From: Ilumatobacteraceae bacterium
Lineage (GTDB): Bacteria > Actinomycetota > Acidimicrobiia > Acidimicrobiales > Ilumatobacteraceae
Assembly (NCBI GenBank): GCA_033344875.1
Contig: JAWPMO010000001.1
Coordinates: forward strand, 3,993,595 to 4,057,594
Direction: 5' to 3'
DNA: 64,000 bases
How positions within the stretch are numbered: position 1 is the stretch's first letter; each line of letters begins with the position of its first letter. Shown one piece after another: positions 52,870 through 61,258 of the stretch. A model generated the notes under the pieces. The model worked only from the letters and a program-made list of their open reading frames with translations, was not told the DNA's origin and made no database searches. The translations under genes were made by a program, and so were the position numbers.

Positions 52870-53250
52870 ATGGCAACCAAGGACGAGATTCTCGACGCCA
52901 TTTCCAACATGACCGTCATCGAGCTCAAGGAGCTCCTCGACGCCTTCGAAGAGAAGTTCGAAGTCACCGCAGCCGCCCCCGTGGCGGTCGCAGCAGCCGG
53001 TGCGCCGGCCGCTGGTGGCGAAGAAGCCGCTGCCGAGCAGGACGAGTTCGACGTTGTCCTCACCGAGGCCGGCGGCCAGAAGATCCAGGTGATCAAGGCC
53101 GTGCGCGAGCTGACGAGCCTGGGCCTCAAGGAGGCCAAGGACCTCGTCGACGGCGCACCGAAGCCGATCCTCGAGAAGGCCGACAAGGCAGCCGCCGATG
53201 CGGCCAAGGCCAAGCTCGAAGAGGCCGGCGCCACCGTCGAACTCAAGTGA
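52870..53250 (+). CDS. rplL: 50S ribosomal protein L7/L12
   Basis: 126 aa. N-terminal dimerisation helices, Ala-rich hinge (about 37-58) and C-terminal domain [20 protein letters not shown] with [14 protein letters not shown]. Stalk protein recruiting translation factors. An 86-nt gap follows rplJ; AAGGAG precedes the ATG. Confidence 0.98.
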
Positions 53251-53281
53251 GCCGAGCGCCATCGGCGCTCACCTGAATTGA

Positions 53282-53309
53282 CGGAGCCCCGGGGAGACCC
53301 GGGGCTCCG
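53282..53309 (+). terminator. Terminator after rplL
   Basis: CGGAGCCCCGGG-gaga-CCCGGGGCTCCG, perfect 12-bp stem 31 nt after the stop, without T-tract. It ends the rplJL unit well before rpoB. Confidence 0.8.
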
Positions 53310-53468
53310 CCGCGTCTCCGAGCCGGCCGACCGTCGATTCGGGCCTGCTACCGGGCTGTTACCCGCCGTGTCTACGGTGATCGACATGAATCGGAGCGGG
53401 ACGACAGGTCGGACTCGAACGCGCGCCGTGCCGGCCGAACGCCACGATCCCGTCCTCGTTGCGGCGAC

Positions 53469-55922
<2,454 letters not shown>

Positions 55923-56042
55923 CGCCGTTCGCAACCAGACCGTCGTCGACCGGTCGGGTATCGGTGCGCGGCCGATTCTCCGCGCGACGAGGTCGTCGCG
56001 AGCGGTCCCGCCGATGTGCGTCGTTCTGCGTTCGGACGCGAT

Positions 56043-56072
56043 GAACCCCCGGGCTGTACAACCCGGGGGTTC
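56043..56072. terminator. Bidirectional terminator hairpin
   Basis: GAACCCCCGGG-N8-CCCGGGGGTTC, perfect 11-bp stem between the convergent lipoprotein and Ser/Pro/Ala-repeat genes. Confidence 0.75.
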
Positions 56073-56116
56073 GAGGCGCCGACTCGCAGGCGGACGCGGT
56101 CGACGAGTTGGCTCGG

Positions 56117-56758
56117 TCAGCTGCTGTAGCCGCTCCCTGGGGAGCCAGGGCTGGCCGGGCTGGCCGCACTCTGAGCGCTGACTGGGCTCGCGGGGCTGTC
56201 TGCGCTGTCGGTTGCCGGGGTCGGAGCTGGAGCAGGTGCTTGTGTGCCCGGCGTATCGGGAGAGTCAGGGCTGGCAGGCGATGCCGGGCTGTTCACCGAG
56301 ACGGGACTCTCGGCGCCGGCCGGTGTCGCCGGGCTGGCCGGTGATGTCGGGCTGTCGGGTGTCGCCGGGCTGGCCGGTGAAGCCGGGCTGTCGGGGCTGG
56401 CGGGCGTTGTCGGGCTGTTCGGCGAGTCCGAACTCCCGACCGAGTTCATCTCGGCGACGGGCGGCGCCGGCCGCTCGTCCGTGCGGCCGGTCACGGCGGG
56501 CGACCGGGGCGACAGGTTCACCGAGGCCGCGGAGGCCAGCGACGTCGACGTCGGCGGGATCACGACCGGGGCCGAGAGCCGGGGTGCACTGTTGGGTGCG
56601 TCCTGCAACTCGACCTGACCCGGGGTGAGACCCCCGGTGTCGTTGCCGGCGAGTGCGAACCCGCCGAGGCCGACGCCGGCCACTGTGCCGACGGCGGCGG
56701 CGACCTTCCAGTTGAGCCTCGTGGTGGTCGTCGTGCTGGTCTTCGCTGGGGTGTTCAT
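56117..56758 (-). CDS. Membrane-anchored Ser/Pro/Ala-repeat protein
   Basis: 213 aa, no known family. A Thr-rich start and one hydrophobic helix (about 17-37, WKVAAAVGTVAGVGLGGFAL) are followed by an extracytoplasmic region. From about 108 on it is built of S/T-P-A/D tripeptides (SPASPDSPASPASPATP), expected to form an extended polyproline-II-like stalk. It lacks charged residues and cysteines in the repeat. A strong AAGGAG Shine-Dalgarno precedes the ATG. An OmpR-type direct repeat shared with two other genes lies upstream (56877-56891). Confidence 0.75.
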   Translation of the reverse strand: MNTPAKTSTTTTTRLNWKVAAAVGTVAGVGLGGFALAGNDTGGLTPGQVELQDAPNSAPRLSAPVVIPPTSTSLASAASVNLSPRSPAVTGRTDERPAPPVAEMNSVGSSDSPNSPTTPASPDSPASPASPATPDSPTSPASPATPAGAESPVSVNSPASPASPDSPDTPGTQAPAPAPTPATDSADSPASPVSAQSAASPASPGSPGSGYSS

Positions 56759-56847
56759 CTCGATCGTTCTCCTTCGAGTTCGGACGGGGTCGATCCGTTC
56801 GACCGGCCCCCTGGGGTGTCTCGATCGGGTTGCCCGATCAGGAGTTC

Positions 56848-56902
56848 ATGGTGCGCAGCGGCTCGTGTGAGGGTCGTGAGTCATGTCTGAGACTTCTCTC
56901 AT
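56848..56902 (-). promoter_or_regulatory. Regulon site C, upstream of the Ser/Pro/Ala-repeat gene
   Basis: On the minus strand CTCAGACATGACTCA (56891-56877) is a direct CTCA repeat with 11-nt period. Twenty-three nt after the second half-site comes CACCAT (56853-56848), a -10 candidate. An adjoining partial inverted repeat TGAGA-cttc-TCTCA lies at 56888-56901. Spacing and sequence match sites A and B. Confidence 0.55.
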
Positions 56903-58170
56903 CTTCGTTCGCACGTCCCATCTCGTCCGCAGTCACCGATCGGTCCGACCCCCGCCGTGTCGAGCAGCCGCTCGGCGAGGTCGAGCCGTCCGCGGACGAC
57001 CGTGGCCCAGTCGTCCTGCTGGATGCGGAACGGTCCGGTGGCGAGGCCGACGAGCACGGCTGCGGTGACCGTGTCGAGTTCGACGGGGTCGGTGCGGACC
57101 GTGAACCCTCGCCACAGTTCGTCCGCATACCTGTCGATCGCGGGCCCGGTGCCGTCGACGGCCGCGCCGGCGCGATACCGGAGGTGGCCGATCACGGTCG
57201 CCATGTCGTCGACGGGGTCGCCGGGACCGACGTCGTCGATGTCGAGCACACCGATGATGCTGTCGGTGTCGACCACCAGTTGCCCCTCGTGAAGGTCGCC
57301 GTGCACCGTCGGGCCGTGCCGGGCGAGTGCCTGTTCGGCGAGTGGCTCGAAGCGCTCGATCAACTCGTCGAGGCGGTGCCGTTCGGCCGGCATGACGCTC
57401 GCGAGCATGCGGGCATGACCGCCGGCGTCGAGGCACCGTGGCCGTCGGGGAGCGGCATCCGTGAGCTCGACCGATCGAATCCGCTCGATCACGTCGACGA
57501 ACCCCTCCGGCCGCGGCCAGGGCGGCGTGCCCGTCTTCAGCCGTTCGCGCAACGTCGGTCCTGCGAGTTCGGTCATCGCCAACCAGCCGAGCTCGAGGTC
57601 GGCGGCCAGCACCTCCGGGACGGGGACCCCGGCGCCACCGAGTCGGACGTGGCGATCGACGAGCGCGGCCGTCGTGTCGGGCGCGGTGAGCTTGACGTAC
57701 CGCACGCGTCCCATGGCATCGGTCGTCCGTACGACTGCTCGTTCGGTCGGTCGATAGGCGACCACCTCGAGTGCGACCGGGCCAGAGACCACCTCGCCGA
57801 GCAGCGCCTCGGCGCGACCGGGCGTCACGGCACGTTCGAGCGCCGTCAACATGGGGTCGAACGGCCACCGCCAGACCCCGACGATCAGGTGGTCGCCCGC
57901 GTCGGTCGTGGCCTCGACCGGCACGGTGCCGGGCGGGGGACCGGCGGCGGTGGTGGCTGCGATCAAGGTGTCGTGGTGTTCCCGACCGTGGCGACGGATC
58001 GTGGCGTCGTAGCGCACGATCAGATCGAACCCGGGTCGGTACTGCACGTGGCGTGGGCGGCAGGCGACCAGCTCGGCGCCACTCGACTCGACGGCGGCAC
58101 CGAGTGCATCCGCCGCTGCGGCACTCGTCAGATGCGCGGCCGCGGGGAGCACGGGGTCATCGATGAGCAC
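56899..58170 (-). CDS. APH-family phosphotransferase (aminoglycoside-phosphotransferase-like)
   Basis: 423 aa from GTG 58170 (443 from ATG 58230). Protein-kinase-like fold: catalytic HGDLHEGQ (residues 290-297 in the short form) and metal-binding LDIDDVGPGDP. The N-terminal half includes a second diverged lobe (LIVRYDATIRRHG), so the protein may carry an extra substrate-binding region. The GTG start is preferred: CACGCT lies 6 nt upstream, and ATG 58230 falls inside a palindrome that matches the regulator-binding sites of neighbouring genes. Members phosphorylate small molecules; the substrate is unknown. It follows the response-regulator gene. Confidence 0.8.
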   Translation of the reverse strand: MLIDDPVLPAAAHLTSAAAADALGAAVESSGAELVACRPRHVQYRPGFDLIVRYDATIRRHGREHHDTLIAATTAAGPPPGTVPVEATTDAGDHLIVGVWRWPFDPMLTALERAVTPGRAEALLGEVVSGPVALEVVAYRPTERAVVRTTDAMGRVRYVKLTAPDTTAALVDRHVRLGGAGVPVPEVLAADLELGWLAMTELAGPTLRERLKTGTPPWPRPEGFVDVIERIRSVELTDAAPRRPRCLDAGGHARMLASVMPAERHRLDELIERFEPLAEQALARHGPTVHGDLHEGQLVVDTDSIIGVLDIDDVGPGDPVDDMATVIGHLRYRAGAAVDGTGPAIDRYADELWRGFTVRTDPVELDTVTAAVLVGLATGPFRIQQDDWATVVRGRLDLAERLLDTAGVGPIGDCGRDGTCERR

Positions 58171-58176
58171 GTCATC

Positions 58177-58234
58177 AGCGTGCGCTGCCGAGATGGGAAC
58201 GTGGTGACGACCGGATGAGAACTCTCTCATCCGG
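58177..58234 (-). promoter_or_regulatory. Regulon site B, upstream of the APH-like gene
   Basis: On the minus strand CTCATCCGGTCGTCA (58219-58205) is an 11-nt-period direct repeat (CTCA/GTCA). Twenty-two nt after the second half-site is CACGCT (58182-58177), 6 nt before GTG 58170. A perfect inverted repeat CCGGATGAGA-actc-TCTCATCCGG (58211-58234) overlaps it and could also act as a hairpin between the regulator and APH genes. Confidence 0.6.
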
Positions 58235-58252
58235 AGCGGGTGCCGGGCTCGG

Positions 58253-58912
58253 TCAGGTCTCGAGCCGGTACCCCATCCCGCGGACCGTGTTGATCACGCC
58301 GTCGCCGAGCTTCTTGCGCAGGTAGCGAACGTAGACGTCGACGACGTTGGAACCCGGGTCGAAGTCGTAGCCCCAGACGTGACTGAGCAGCTGCTCGCGA
58401 TCGAGCACCTGGCCGGGATGGCGGAGGAACGTCTCGAGGAGTGCGAACTCGCGTGCGGTCAGCTCGATCGTGCGGTCGTCCGCGGTGGCCCGTCGGGAGC
58501 GAAGATCAAGCGACACCCCACCCGCGCTCAGGACGGTGGTGTCGTCGGCCACGTCGTCACGCAGGCGGAGGCGGACGCGAGCCAGCAGCTCCTCGAACCG
58601 GAACGGCTTCGTGACGTAGTCGTCGGCGCCTTCTTCGAGGCTTCCGACGGTGTCGTCGACGCCGTTGCGCGCGGTCAGCACGATCACCGGGAGGCGTTCG
58701 CCTCGGCCGCGGACGGCGCGCAGCACCTCCCGACCGTCGAGACCGGGCAGACCGAGGTCGAGGATCATCAGGTCGAACGCTTCGTCGCGGGCGAGGGCGG
58801 CGGCGTCGGTACCGCTCGTGACCGCGACCGTGCTGTACCCGTTCGACCGCAGTCCTTTCTCGAGGAACGACACGATTCGGGACTCGTCCTCGGCGATCAG
58901 GATGCGTGTCAT
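58253..58912 (-). CDS. OmpR-family response regulator
   Basis: 219 aa. Receiver with acidic AEDE (7-10), phospho-acceptor Asp52 in LDLGLPGLDG and Lys in DYVTKPF. The C-terminal winged helix contains LTAREFALLETFLRHPGQV, REQLLSHVWGYDFDPGSNVVDVYV and TVRGMGYRLE. ATG overlaps the kinase stop (ATGA). OmpR-type regulators bind direct repeats with about 10-11-nt period, matching the three sites found around this gene set. Confidence 0.95.
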   Translation of the reverse strand: MTRILIAEDESRIVSFLEKGLRSNGYSTVAVTSGTDAAALARDEAFDLMILDLGLPGLDGREVLRAVRGRGERLPVIVLTARNGVDDTVGSLEEGADDYVTKPFRFEELLARVRLRLRDDVADDTTVLSAGGVSLDLRSRRATADDRTIELTAREFALLETFLRHPGQVLDREQLLSHVWGYDFDPGSNVVDVYVRYLRKKLGDGVINTVRGMGYRLET

Positions 58913-60366
58913 CGGGATGGCTCCTCGGGGGGTTCGATGGGGAGGTGGATCGTGAATCGTGCACCACCGTCGGTTTCGTGCGACGCCGCGGCGTAGCCGC
59001 CGTGGGCCCGGGCGATGGCGTCGACGATCGACAGGCCGATGCCCATGCCCTCGGCCCGGCGCGACCGGCTCGCCGCGCCCCGGAAGCGACGTTGGAAGAG
59101 TTGTTCGAACGCCGCCGGTTCGATGCCCGGTCCGGTGTCGCGGATCCAGATCCGGACCGGTGTGGCGGCCGGACCGTCGGCCGCCACACCGATGCCGATC
59201 TCGTCGCCCGATTCGGTGTGCTGGACGGCGTTGGCGGCCAGGTTGAGGACAGCCTGCACCAGGCGGTCCCGATCGCCGATGATCGCGAGCTCACCGGCCC
59301 GTGGCGCCATGTCGATGACCCATCGGCGTTCGTCGAGTCCGTCGACCTTCTGCTCCACCGCCTCGACGAGGTCGGCGAGGTCGATCGGGCCGAGGTGGAG
59401 GAACGCGTGCACCTCGGCTGTGGCGAGGAGCAGCAGGTCGTTCACGTACCGGTTCATCCGGTCCAGCTCGTCGGTGATGACGGCGACCGTCTCGGCGCGT
59501 TCGTCGGGATCGTCGCCGAGGAGATCGAGATGGCCCTGCGCGATCGTGATCGGCGTGCGCAGTTCGTGGGCGACGTCGTCGAGGAATTGGCGCTGGTGCA
59601 CGAAGCTCACCTCGAGTCGCTCGACCATGTCGTTGAACGTGGTCGTGAGCTCGGCCAACTCGTCGTCACCCTCGACCGGGATGCGGCGCGACAGGTCCGT
59701 GTCCGTCACGCCTCGCGCGGCAGCGGTGAGTTCACGGACCGGGCGGAGTACCCGTCCCGCGAGTGACCAGGCGAGCGCCCCCGAGATCACCAGCACGACA
59801 CCGCCCGCGATCAGGAGCACACGAACAACGTCCAGGATTTCGCGCCGGTCGATCTCGGGGAAGTGAGCCACCACGAACACGCCGGTGGTCTCGCCGTCGG
59901 CGACGAGTGGCGTGGCCAGATACCGCATCTCGCCGACGGCGGTGTCGACGGTCGCGCGCTGCGGACCCGTGCCCGATGTCCATGCCGCGACGATCGCCTC
60001 GTCGGTGAAGACCGCCGGCGGTGCATCGAAGCTCGAGAAGTACGGCCGCCCGTCGACGACGGTGTAGAAGGCCTCGTTCTCGGCGGGCACGCTGCGCTTC
60101 AGGAACACGTCGAAGATCGCAGCGGCGTCGGTGCCGAACGGCTGGCCGGTCGCCGGGTCGGTGCCATCGGCGAGCAGTCGGAGTTCCTCGACCTCCTGCG
60201 CGAAGGCGCGTTCGATCTCGCGGTCGAGCCGGGCGAGCAACACCTGATGGGTGACGAGGATCGAAATGCCCAGCGCCGCGGCGAGTAGGCCGACGTAGCC
60301 CAGCACCACCCGGGTCCGAATGCCGATCCGTACCCGGCGATGTCGCCGCTGCTCAACCGTCGTCAT
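58909..60366 (-). CDS. Sensor histidine kinase, HAMP-HisKA type
   Basis: 485 aa. Helix about 19-42, extracytoplasmic sensor domain about 43-180, helix about 181-203, HAMP about 204-258, HisKA with His267 in FLDDVAHELRTPI, and HATPase with LNLAANAVQHT and DTGPGI. ATG 60366 (MTTVEQRRHRR) is chosen: it overlaps the end of the upstream poly-Asp gene by 14 nt; longer in-frame readings would translate that gene's Asp-codon repeats in another frame. Signals to the downstream OmpR-type regulator. Confidence 0.92.
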   Translation of the reverse strand: MTTVEQRRHRRVRIGIRTRVVLGYVGLLAAALGISILVTHQVLLARLDREIERAFAQEVEELRLLADGTDPATGQPFGTDAAAIFDVFLKRSVPAENEAFYTVVDGRPYFSSFDAPPAVFTDEAIVAAWTSGTGPQRATVDTAVGEMRYLATPLVADGETTGVFVVAHFPEIDRREILDVVRVLLIAGGVVLVISGALAWSLAGRVLRPVRELTAAARGVTDTDLSRRIPVEGDDELAELTTTFNDMVERLEVSFVHQRQFLDDVAHELRTPITIAQGHLDLLGDDPDERAETVAVITDELDRMNRYVNDLLLLATAEVHAFLHLGPIDLADLVEAVEQKVDGLDERRWVIDMAPRAGELAIIGDRDRLVQAVLNLAANAVQHTESGDEIGIGVAADGPAATPVRIWIRDTGPGIEPAAFEQLFQRRFRGAASRSRRAEGMGIGLSIVDAIARAHGGYAAASHETDGGARFTIHLPIEPPEEPSR

Positions 60367-60859
60367 CGTCATCGTCATCGTCATCGGGATCGTCGTCATC
60401 GGGATCGTCATCGGGATCGTCGTCGTCGTCATCGTCATCGTCATCGTCATCGGGATCGTCGTCGTCGTCATCGTCATCGTCGTCGTCGACCGGTGCCGGC
60501 TGCGGCGGCGGCGGGGCGGCGGTCGGCGGGGGTGGGGGCGGCAGACCGATCGTGGTGACGGGGGCGTTGCCGGGCGGCGGTGAGGTGGTGGGAGCGGTCG
60601 TGGACGGGGTGGTCGGTGATGTCGTGGTCGCCGCGGGGTTCGAGGTGGGCGCGGGCGAGGACCGCGTGGTCGTGGTGCTGGTTGTGGTCGTGGTCGTCGT
60701 CGTGGTCGTGGTCGTGGTGCTGGCGGCGACGGGCCCGACGAGTTCGATCGGGTCGACTGGAGCCGGATCACCCCGGAACGCGCCGAGCGCCAGGTAGACC
60801 AGTCCGACACCGAACGCGACCGAGATGGCGAACACCGTGATCACCTGACCCACGCGCAT
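60353..60859 (-). CDS. Membrane protein with Thr-rich, Pro-rich and poly-Asp tail
   Basis: 168 aa, no known family. Helix 7-28 (ITVFAISVAFGVGLVYLALG), Thr-rich linker (about 48-65, runs of Thr), Pro-rich stretch (107-123), then about 43 residues of almost pure Asp broken by single Pro residues (125-167). The tail DNA is a GAT/GAC microsatellite, prone to length change. Topology suggests the acidic tail lies outside the membrane. The histidine kinase start overlaps its end, so the two are translationally coupled: a possible accessory sensor for cations or polycations (inference). ATG 60859 is used; ATG 61000 lies inside site A. Confidence 0.7.
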   Translation of the reverse strand: MRVGQVITVFAISVAFGVGLVYLALGAFRGDPAPVDPIELVGPVAASTTTTTTTTTTTTTSTTTTRSSPAPTSNPAATTTSPTTPSTTAPTTSPPPGNAPVTTIGLPPPPPPTAAPPPPQPAPVDDDDDDDDDDDPDDDDDDDDDDDDPDDDPDDDDPDDDDDDDDDG

Positions 60860-60946
60860 CAGCCCGGAACGGCTCACGACGGACGGCACGCCCGATCGGT
60901 CGGATGACCGGTCGCAGGTCGGGACGAACGGAACTGCACCAGGTCG

Positions 60947-61000
60947 AGTGTGGCGGGTCTCACGGAGGATCCCGTGAGATCCAGATGAGAACCTTCTCAT
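60947..61000 (-). promoter_or_regulatory. Regulon site A, upstream of the poly-Asp/kinase/regulator operon
   Basis: On the minus strand CTCATCTGGATCTCA (60989-60975) is a direct CTCA repeat with 11-nt period. Twenty-two nt after the second half-site is CACACT (60952-60947). Two inverted repeats overlap it: ATGAGAA-cc-TTCTCAT (60985-61000) and TCTCACGG-aggatc-CCGTGAGA (60958-60979). Matches sites B and C in sequence and spacing. Confidence 0.6.
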
Positions 61001-61038
61001 GACGGACCGTCCCGAGCGACTCCCGCGAACGTGGATCC

Positions 61039-61067
61039 TTGACAGGGGCGGTCGATTTCCGTACCGT
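61039..61067 (+). promoter_or_regulatory. rpoB: rpoB promoter P1
   Basis: TTGACA (61039-61044), 17 nt, TACCGT (61062-61067): near-consensus sigma-70/SigA promoter in the 400-nt gap (60860-61258) between the divergent poly-Asp gene and rpoB. Leader to the start codon about 185 nt. Confidence 0.7.
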
Positions 61068-61135
61068 GTGCCTCAATTCGGGCAGGAGGCCGGGAGGCCG
61101 CCTTCGATCCGATCCAGAGCGCTCCGTTGCGACGG

Positions 61136-61165
61136 TTGACGATCCTGTGACGATCAGGATAGGCT
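61136..61165 (+). promoter_or_regulatory. rpoB: rpoB promoter P2
   Basis: TTGACG (61136-61141), 18 nt, TAGGCT (61160-61165), about 95 nt before the start codon. A second SigA-type promoter is usual for rpoBC when it is uncoupled from rplJL. Confidence 0.6.
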
Positions 61166-61258
61166 CGTCTGTTGCCGTGCGTCTCCTTGCCCTTCACCAG
61201 AATTCCGGTGTGGCTCTGGCGCGCCCAACAAACCGTGCCAACAACATCGAGGTGATCT

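Follow-up and report, generated by a model that had tools for sequence, protein, structure and literature searches.

A candidate self-regulating two-component module with a composite operator at three promoters in an Ilumatobacteraceae genome

Introduction

What do three nearly identical DNA sites, each placed before a transcription unit of one linked gene group, do in the genome of an Ilumatobacteraceae bacterium (GenBank assembly GCA_033344875.1), and which protein would recognise them? The sites lie in a 64,000-nucleotide stretch of contig JAWPMO010000001.1 (forward-strand positions 3,993,595 to 4,057,594), hereafter the window, to whose numbering the coordinates of the cluster refer. On its minus strand, from 61000 to 56117, there follow in order operator 1, the genes for a small membrane protein with a poly-Asp tail, a sensor histidine kinase (HK) and a response regulator (RR), operator 2, the gene for an APH-fold kinase, operator 3, and the gene for a Ser/Pro-repeat protein. 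A first-pass annotation had quoted three minus-strand sequences, all of which are found where it placed them, and had joined the five genes into a local regulon controlled through a plain OmpR-type direct repeat; comparative evidence now favours the regulon, while the plain direct repeat has given way to a composite resembling AgrR and CusR boxes. Judging from sequence, we consider it very likely that the cluster is a closed, self-regulating two-component module, in which the three promoters are under class II activation by the OmpR-family RR. The evidence comprises the identity of the sites, their genome-wide exclusivity, their positional conservation, their co-occurrence with the RR, the -10 columns and the placement of start codons.

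Operator architecture

The operator unit is a 6-4-6 inverted repeat, perfect at two of the three sites (ATGAGA-N4-TCTCAT) and reading ATGAGA-N4-TCTCAG at the third, whose right arm recurs at a period of 11 nucleotides (nt), with a further phased copy recognisable at two of the three sites. The 15-bp direct repeat of 11-nt period in the earlier description is present, but as one part of this larger unit of inverted repeat plus phased repeats, and the TGAGA/TCTCA inverted arm reported there at all three sites corresponds to the inverted repeat found at each. Operator 1 (60964-61000; minus strand, as are all cluster features), 5′ of the poly-Asp/HK/RR operon, consists of the inverted repeat ATGAGAAGGTTCTCAT at 60985-61000, TCTCA at 60975-60979 and, in the degenerate third phased position, CCTCC at 60964-60968. 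Operator 2 (58194-58230), 5′ of the APH-like kinase gene, contains ATGAGAGAGTTCTCAT at 58215-58230, CGTCA at 58205-58209 and TCCCA at 58194-58198, and operator 3 (56866-56902), 5′ of the Ser/Pro-repeat gene, contains ATGAGAGAAGTCTCAG at 56887-56902, ACTCA at 56877-56881 and TCACA at 56866-56870. The coordinates confirm that the sites precede the three units named by the first-pass annotation, in which the last was called a Ser/Pro/Ala-repeat gene.

An alignment of 21 hand-picked promoters from the clusters of eight genomes (five operon, eight kinase and eight repeat-protein promoters) yielded the pattern aTGAGA-N4-TCTCA-tc-N4-yCTCA-yc-N4-tCnCA, with direct repeats of 11-nt period at columns 21-25 and, less strictly, 32-36. 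A cAnnnT element follows, with A at column 49 in 17 and T at column 53 in 16 of the 21 sequences, and most of the conservation falls in the columns of the operator and the -10 element rather than in the flanks. With +1 set at column 60, the -10 element falls at about -12 to -7; upstream of it lie the third TCTCA (about -28 to -24), the second (about -39 to -35) and the inverted repeat (about -60 to -45). Some 11 nt separate the last repeat from the -10 element, and the -35 position is occupied by the repeats, with no other conserved hexamer apparent there; this coverage, together with the spacing to the -10 element, points to a class II activator arrangement. Two ATGs of the window (60998-61000 and 58228-58230) lie inside operators in frame with long open reading frames (ORFs), and would mislead gene callers into adding a probably spurious N-terminus, MRxFSS.

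Two variant arrangements were seen in relatives. Between the kinase gene and the poly-Asp operon of genome G093 (L086, 6617-6652), two divergent, overlapping operators have one inverted repeat in common, and in genome G185 (L082, 6446-7226, minus strand) the operator and the 5′ part of the HK gene are apparently duplicated in tandem.

Occurrence in the window and the genome

The pattern CTCA-N7-STCA-N22..24-CANNNT has exactly three matches in the window against 0.11 expected, and none of 100 shuffles reached three, which substantiates the earlier observation of a common spacing to a CAnnnT -10 element. When the 4,968,626-base genome was scanned with the extended pattern TGAGA-N4-TCTCA-N8-TCA (13-base core), three exact matches were obtained, all in the cluster, where about 0.019 would be expected from the base composition of the window. 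A single additional place, C1:1168239, appeared when one mismatch was allowed, and the reversed control gave none in the whole genome; this place, flanked on one side by an ORF that on a reading of the sequence alone resembles a transposase and on the other by a further ORF, was not counted as a regulon member. TGAGA-N4-TCTCA by itself has four exact places genome-wide, three of them in the cluster, and with one mismatch 29 places against 14 for the reversed control. Since the one-mismatch inverted core is common genome-wide, only the exact or longer pattern is informative.

Promoters and gene starts

The putative -10 elements are CACACT (60947-60952) for the operon, with a predicted +1 at about 60940; CACGCT (58177-58182) for the kinase gene, with a predicted +1 at 58170, the G of a GTG start codon; and CACCAT (56848-56853) for the Ser/Pro-repeat gene, with a predicted +1 at about 56841. 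Starts near 60940, 58170 and 56842 had already been predicted from the sequence, and they are backed by column statistics and start-codon placement in 52 loci (638,541 bases, several from genomes already examined) that were fetched by similarity to the APH-like kinase alone, so that the motif played no part in their choice. Sites in these loci were called at no more than one mismatch. ANNNT stands at columns 49-53 in 44 of their 73 sites, the next best column reaching 8, and an ATG or GTG opening an ORF of at least 80 residues stands at columns 60-62 in 38 of the 73, compared with 1-8 in five other three-column windows. Start codons at, or no more than 2 nt from, the predicted +1 imply leaderless mRNAs and support both the -10 and the +1 predictions. 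In the window, GTG 58170 is the most likely start of the APH-like kinase, on a leaderless mRNA, the Ser/Pro-repeat mRNA would be leadered, with AAGGAG (56769-56774) before ATG 56758, and the poly-Asp gene probably begins at GTG 60889 or ATG 60859. The CACACT of the operon promoter recurs at the same columns in locus L038.

Response regulator and histidine kinase

The gene at 58253-58912, which the first-pass annotation took to encode an OmpR-type regulator, does so by Pfam: its product matches the PF00072 receiver domain with 93.8 bits (cut-off 30.2) and PF00486 Trans_reg_C with 98.7 bits (cut-off 26.2), which places it in the OmpR/PhoB family. Its best NCBIfam model is TIGR01387 (cztR_silR_copR, heavy-metal RRs of the CzcR/SilR/CopR type), at 211.4 bits and below the cut-off of 279.2. 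The HK (58909-60330; HAMP-HisKA-HATPase by Pfam) likewise scores best against a heavy-metal model, TIGR01386 (sensor kinase, cztS_silS_copS), at 202.4 bits and below the cut-off of 292.55, and a search with its structure model was dominated by the kinase core, with CusS and HprS among the matches.

A helix segment of the form SNVVDVYVxYLRxKL or close to it, which we take to be the recognition helix, is strongly conserved among the RRs associated with sites and reads SNVVDVYVRYLRKKL in the RR of the window. The genome encodes 11 other OmpR-type RRs (E ≤ 1e-20) of at most 47% identity, all of which differ in this segment, and no site was found within 1.5 kb of any of them, the best sequences there having 3-5 mismatches. 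A CTCAG-type variant of the operator was seen directly 5′ of OmpR-type RR genes in loci L052, L069, L070, L071 and L072; the RRs of L052, L069, L070 and L072 were aligned, and their helix segment is slightly different.

Conservation among relatives

Exact sites are present in four of ten genomes of the same genus (the genome itself included), and their placement is kept. Among same-genus genomes with no exact site, no RR was matched at E ≤ 1e-45 in G001, G004 or G008, and G006 and G009 have only RRs of 40-49% identity. Genome G007, with an RR of 66% identity, was considered as a counter-example and set aside, its operon having a two-mismatch site in place, the -10 element CATGCT and a GTG at column 60. 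In genome G032 the kinase and repeat genes occur on a contig lacking the HK and RR genes, and an RR of 61% identity, whose operon is preceded by an exact site, is encoded on another contig.

Across 298 genomes of the order, exact sites were found in 35 (52 sites, with 7 reversed-control matches). An RR ortholog, called at E ≤ 1e-85 with the ten best candidates per genome scored, is present in 16 of these genomes; 14 of the 16 have an exact site, compared with 21 of the 282 others (Fisher p = 6.6e-13, uncorrected for relatedness). In 13 of the 16 an exact site lies within about 5 kb of the RR gene, and the remaining genomes (G123, G210 and G261) have sites with one or two mismatches at the expected positions; the site before the poly-Asp/HK/RR operon is also kept in relatives. 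In the phylum (396 genomes), a stricter TCTCA version occurs in 15 genomes, with no reversed-control match seen in the table. The holders of kinase, RR and sites include Ilumatobacter nonamiensis, Phytohabitans, Pseudonocardia, Saccharomonospora, Modestobacter and Klenkia, and two of the kinase-selected loci (L159, L162) come from Chloroflexi metagenome-assembled genomes (MAGs).

An RR of at least 50% identity, the threshold used for RR calls in the kinase-selected loci, is encoded in 36 of the 52, and 34 of these 36 carry a site. The 73 site matches (40 exact; 63 distinct palindromes after merging of opposite-strand readings) compare with none for the reversed pattern and one for a TGACA version. 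A site is also present in 3 of the 16 loci without such an RR: L166 is a contig of genome G005 and L134 a contig of G032, the RR being on another contig in both, and the contig of L136 begins at the kinase gene. These counts, with those for the order, bear out the expectation of the first-pass annotation that relatives keeping the cluster would keep the sites.

Sites were further seen before glycosyltransferase-28-like genes in L088 (6424-6448, genome G261) and L091 (6428-6452, genome G299), both on the minus strand. The two genes are 52% identical to each other, that of L091 scoring just below the Pfam cut-off, and both genomes have the RR ortholog; in L094 (6416-6440, minus strand, genome G196) a 37% relative of these genes is the second gene behind the site. 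Such genes may repeatedly serve as distant targets of this regulator, a hint that the regulon, local in this genome, has extra members in some relatives, toward cell-envelope sugars.

Proposed mechanism and alternative explanations

In the mechanism that we propose, the HK, probably together with the membrane-anchored poly-Asp protein, would control phosphorylation of the OmpR-family RR, which would bind ATGAGA-N4-TCTCAT through its SNVVDVYVRYLRKKL helix and, in addition, the 11-nt-phased TCTCA repeats down onto the -35 position. Three promoters with a cAnnnT -10 element would then be subject to class II activation by the RR, namely those of its own operon (positive autoregulation), of the APH-like kinase gene (leaderless, GTG at +1) and of the Ser/Pro-repeat gene (leadered). 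We infer binding by the cluster's own RR, activation rather than repression at the three promoters, and involvement of the poly-Asp protein in sensing. An envelope role is suggested by the membrane and exported-type proteins and by the glycosyltransferase-28-like genes in two relatives.

Several observations weigh against this mechanism. Operator 1 has a degenerate third repeat, some of the hand-picked promoters in the alignment have two or three mismatches, and the poly-Asp gene of the window has no in-frame start codon at +1. Two of the 36 RR-bearing kinase loci (L150 and L174) have no site within one mismatch; the site falls in the expected position window in only 22 of the 36 for the operon and 20 of the 36 for the kinase; and most Nitriliruptoraceae kinase loci have one-mismatch or displaced sites, or none. 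The site counts are not independent, since the sequences are related and the palindromic core can be matched on both strands. Eight of 20 regions fetched around order-level sites (L079, L080, L084, L085, L088, L089, L091 and L094) lacked any HK, RR or kinase match in the neighbourhood of the site, and the same holds for one exact site of genome G005 (C17), which means either that closure of the regulon is not general or that chance accounts for some matches. Similar sites also occur beside other RR subfamilies, and a related RR could therefore bind as well.

This last point, together with the sites of some relatives that lie away from any matching RR, would fit a DNA-binding protein other than the cluster's RR; we regard such a binder as highly unlikely, given the strong co-occurrence of sites with this RR, the strongly conserved recognition-helix segment and the lack of sites near the 11 other OmpR-type RRs of the genome. 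It is quite unlikely, in our estimate, that the same regulator acts at the same sites mainly as a repressor, or in a mixed manner, at one or more of the promoters: site position alone leaves the sign unfixed, and the RR of CutRS is reported both to activate and to repress (PMC12802291), but repeats that cover -35 and end about 11 nt before the -10 element form a class II activator layout, as reported for AgrR (PMC7380067).

Two further explanations were rejected. The conserved sequence might be coding, as an N-terminal peptide MRxFSS common to the poly-Asp protein and the kinase, given that long ORFs can be read in frame from the ATGs at 61000 and 58230, with translations beginning MRRFSS and MREFSS; yet a stop codon separates the site from the product before the Ser/Pro-repeat gene, long ORFs of relatives start at column 61 or 62, out of the frame of the operator ATG (operon of L038, L042, and kinase of L039), and conservation tracks the 11-nt spacing and the -10 element rather than codons, which leaves a coding origin extremely unlikely. 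GC-rich genomes do have short repeats, and the off-cluster one-mismatch site stands beside what reads as a transposase ORF, as would suit functionless copies of a chance or mobile short repeat. To this we assign a negligible probability in view of the expected count of 0.019, conservation in operator and -10 columns but not in flanks, and a placement kept across many genera.

This two-component system gains an operator that is defined and open to test, along with predictions of three transcription starts and a five-gene regulon, and gene starts misplaced inside operators become correctable. The co-occurrence of sites, start codons and RR in many genera makes it possible to predict from sequence which RRs probably recognise ATGAGA/TCTCAT boxes. 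Two protein types without a Pfam family, the poly-Asp-tailed membrane protein and the W[KR]-GGFA Ser/Pro-repeat protein, are tied to the system by shared regulation.

A broader proposal, in which we infer both the signal and what the APH-like kinase phosphorylates, is speculative and, as a whole, unlikely. It would make the cluster one case of an undescribed module that is spread through Actinomycetota and apparently also represented in Chloroflexi MAGs. In this module the membrane-anchored poly-Asp tail would serve a CusS/HprS-like kinase as an accessory for sensing or tuning, for example through competition between divalent cations and polycationic compounds. The dedicated output would be a kinase of antibiotic- or small-metabolite-kinase fold, possibly inactivating the sensed polycation, joined in Acidimicrobiia by an exported-type Ser/Pro/Asp-repeat protein.

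Comparison with known two-component systems

The operator is best described as composite, closest in layout to AgrR and CusR boxes and not a plain OmpR/PhoB direct repeat. AgrR of Cupriavidus metallidurans is reported to recognise a 6-4-6 inverted repeat accompanied by direct repeats in phase with it, with contributions from both, and its regulation to involve Type II activation and positive autoregulation (PMC7380067); the layout here is alike. In contrast to AgrR, the half-site here is ATGAGA instead of ATKACA, the direct repeats lie on the promoter side as one to two additional copies, the three targets include no silver or copper genes, and the phylum is different (PMC7380067).

The palindrome given for Escherichia coli CusR, TGACAA-nn-TTGTCA, has equal half-site spacing, and a very small regulon is a further likeness to E. 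coli CusRS and to CopRS, CusRS and CzcRS of Pseudomonas (PMC11195947). Among NCBIfam models, cztR_silR_copR and cztS_silS_copS are the best matches of the RR and the HK, respectively. Both scores are nevertheless below the curated cut-offs, the half-site sequence differs, and no metal-efflux target genes are seen in the cluster (PMC11195947). Since the half-site is ATGAGA and both proteins score below the heavy-metal family cut-offs, an AgrR/CusR type of working is proposed but membership of these families is not claimed.

CutRS and CssRS of Streptomyces resemble the present system as two-component systems of Actinomycetota with a small regulon; for CutR, the motif TAWATAAA and HtrA-family genes as main conserved targets are reported, and no TAWATAAA element occurs in the shared sites here (PMC12802291). 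In the open-access literature, searched with a few terms, no description was found of the module or of a TCTCA operator for it. We regard it as a variant of known two-component biology; for its conserved combination of poly-Asp membrane protein, two-component pair and kinase, the literature searched offered no description.

Partner proteins

The poly-Asp protein (60353-60889, start uncertain between GTG 60889 and ATG 60859) has an N-terminal hydrophobic segment, a VxPIxL-type motif, a Thr/Pro linker and the poly-Asp tail. In 22 of the 36 RR-bearing kinase loci the HK gene closely follows the end of an ORF whose product has an Asp/Glu-rich tail, with a clear hydrophobic segment in 21 of the 22 (exception L141); the other 14 loci gave no acidic-tailed ORF, and in at least one of them the contig ends there. 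Among 16 ORFs taken from behind operon-type or similar sites, all except that of L081 encode acidic-tailed proteins.

The Ser/Pro-repeat (SPA) protein (56117-56758) combines a W[KR]...GGFA-like N-terminus with a tail of SP/DSP repeats, and gave no Pfam or NCBIfam family at E ≤ 0.001. Sixteen repeat proteins behind third-operator sites have in common a W[KR]-containing N-terminal segment, mostly ending in a GG-like/FA-like sequence, and low-complexity tails of Ser/Pro/Asp/Ala or Ser/Asn. Five of the membrane proteins and two of the repeat proteins were searched, with no Pfam family reaching its cut-off.

The APH-like kinase (56899-58170) matches PF01636 with 51.4 bits against a gathering cut-off of 23.2, and the model of APH(3′) aminoglycoside kinases, NF033068, with 27.4 bits, below its cut-off of 205. 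Its structure model has a predicted local distance difference test (pLDDT) score of 89.5 and matches best 5-methylthioribose kinase (2olc; Z 22.4, 4.0 Å over 296 residues), with PsiK, LxmK and APH(4) among further fold matches, at 9-18% identity. The likeness to 5-methylthioribose kinase, APH(4) and LxmK concerns the kinase part, including its HGD motif and invariant Lys and Asp residues; unlike these, the protein has an additional N-terminal part of about 105 residues, barely covered by the matches. As K160, H290-G291-D292 and D310, which comprise HGD and presumed ATP-site residues, are invariant in all 11 aligned kinases, the protein is probably an active kinase. In the kinase of genome G021 (L043, 7066-8484, minus strand), tandem DRGD/DRND-like repeats are inserted between the N-terminal and kinase parts.

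Genomic context

An ORF of 817 residues with pentapeptide repeats (PF00805; 53469-55922, plus strand) adjoins the module on the opposite strand, and the window search gave no site 5′ of it. The cluster is flanked by what are presumably an rplL-like gene (52870-53250) and an rpoB-like ORF (from about 61259, plus strand), both names being assigned from the protein sequences. On these presumed identities, the module (window 53251-61258) splits the rplL-rpoB junction, which is normally tight. Neither rplL nor rpoB was found in the stretches fetched from G002, G003 and G021. In genome G005, rpoB lies on one cluster contig (L039) and rplL on the other (L040); in G032 the kinase and repeat genes sit between rplL and rpoB (L041); and in G155 (L127) rplL is on the contig of the cluster.

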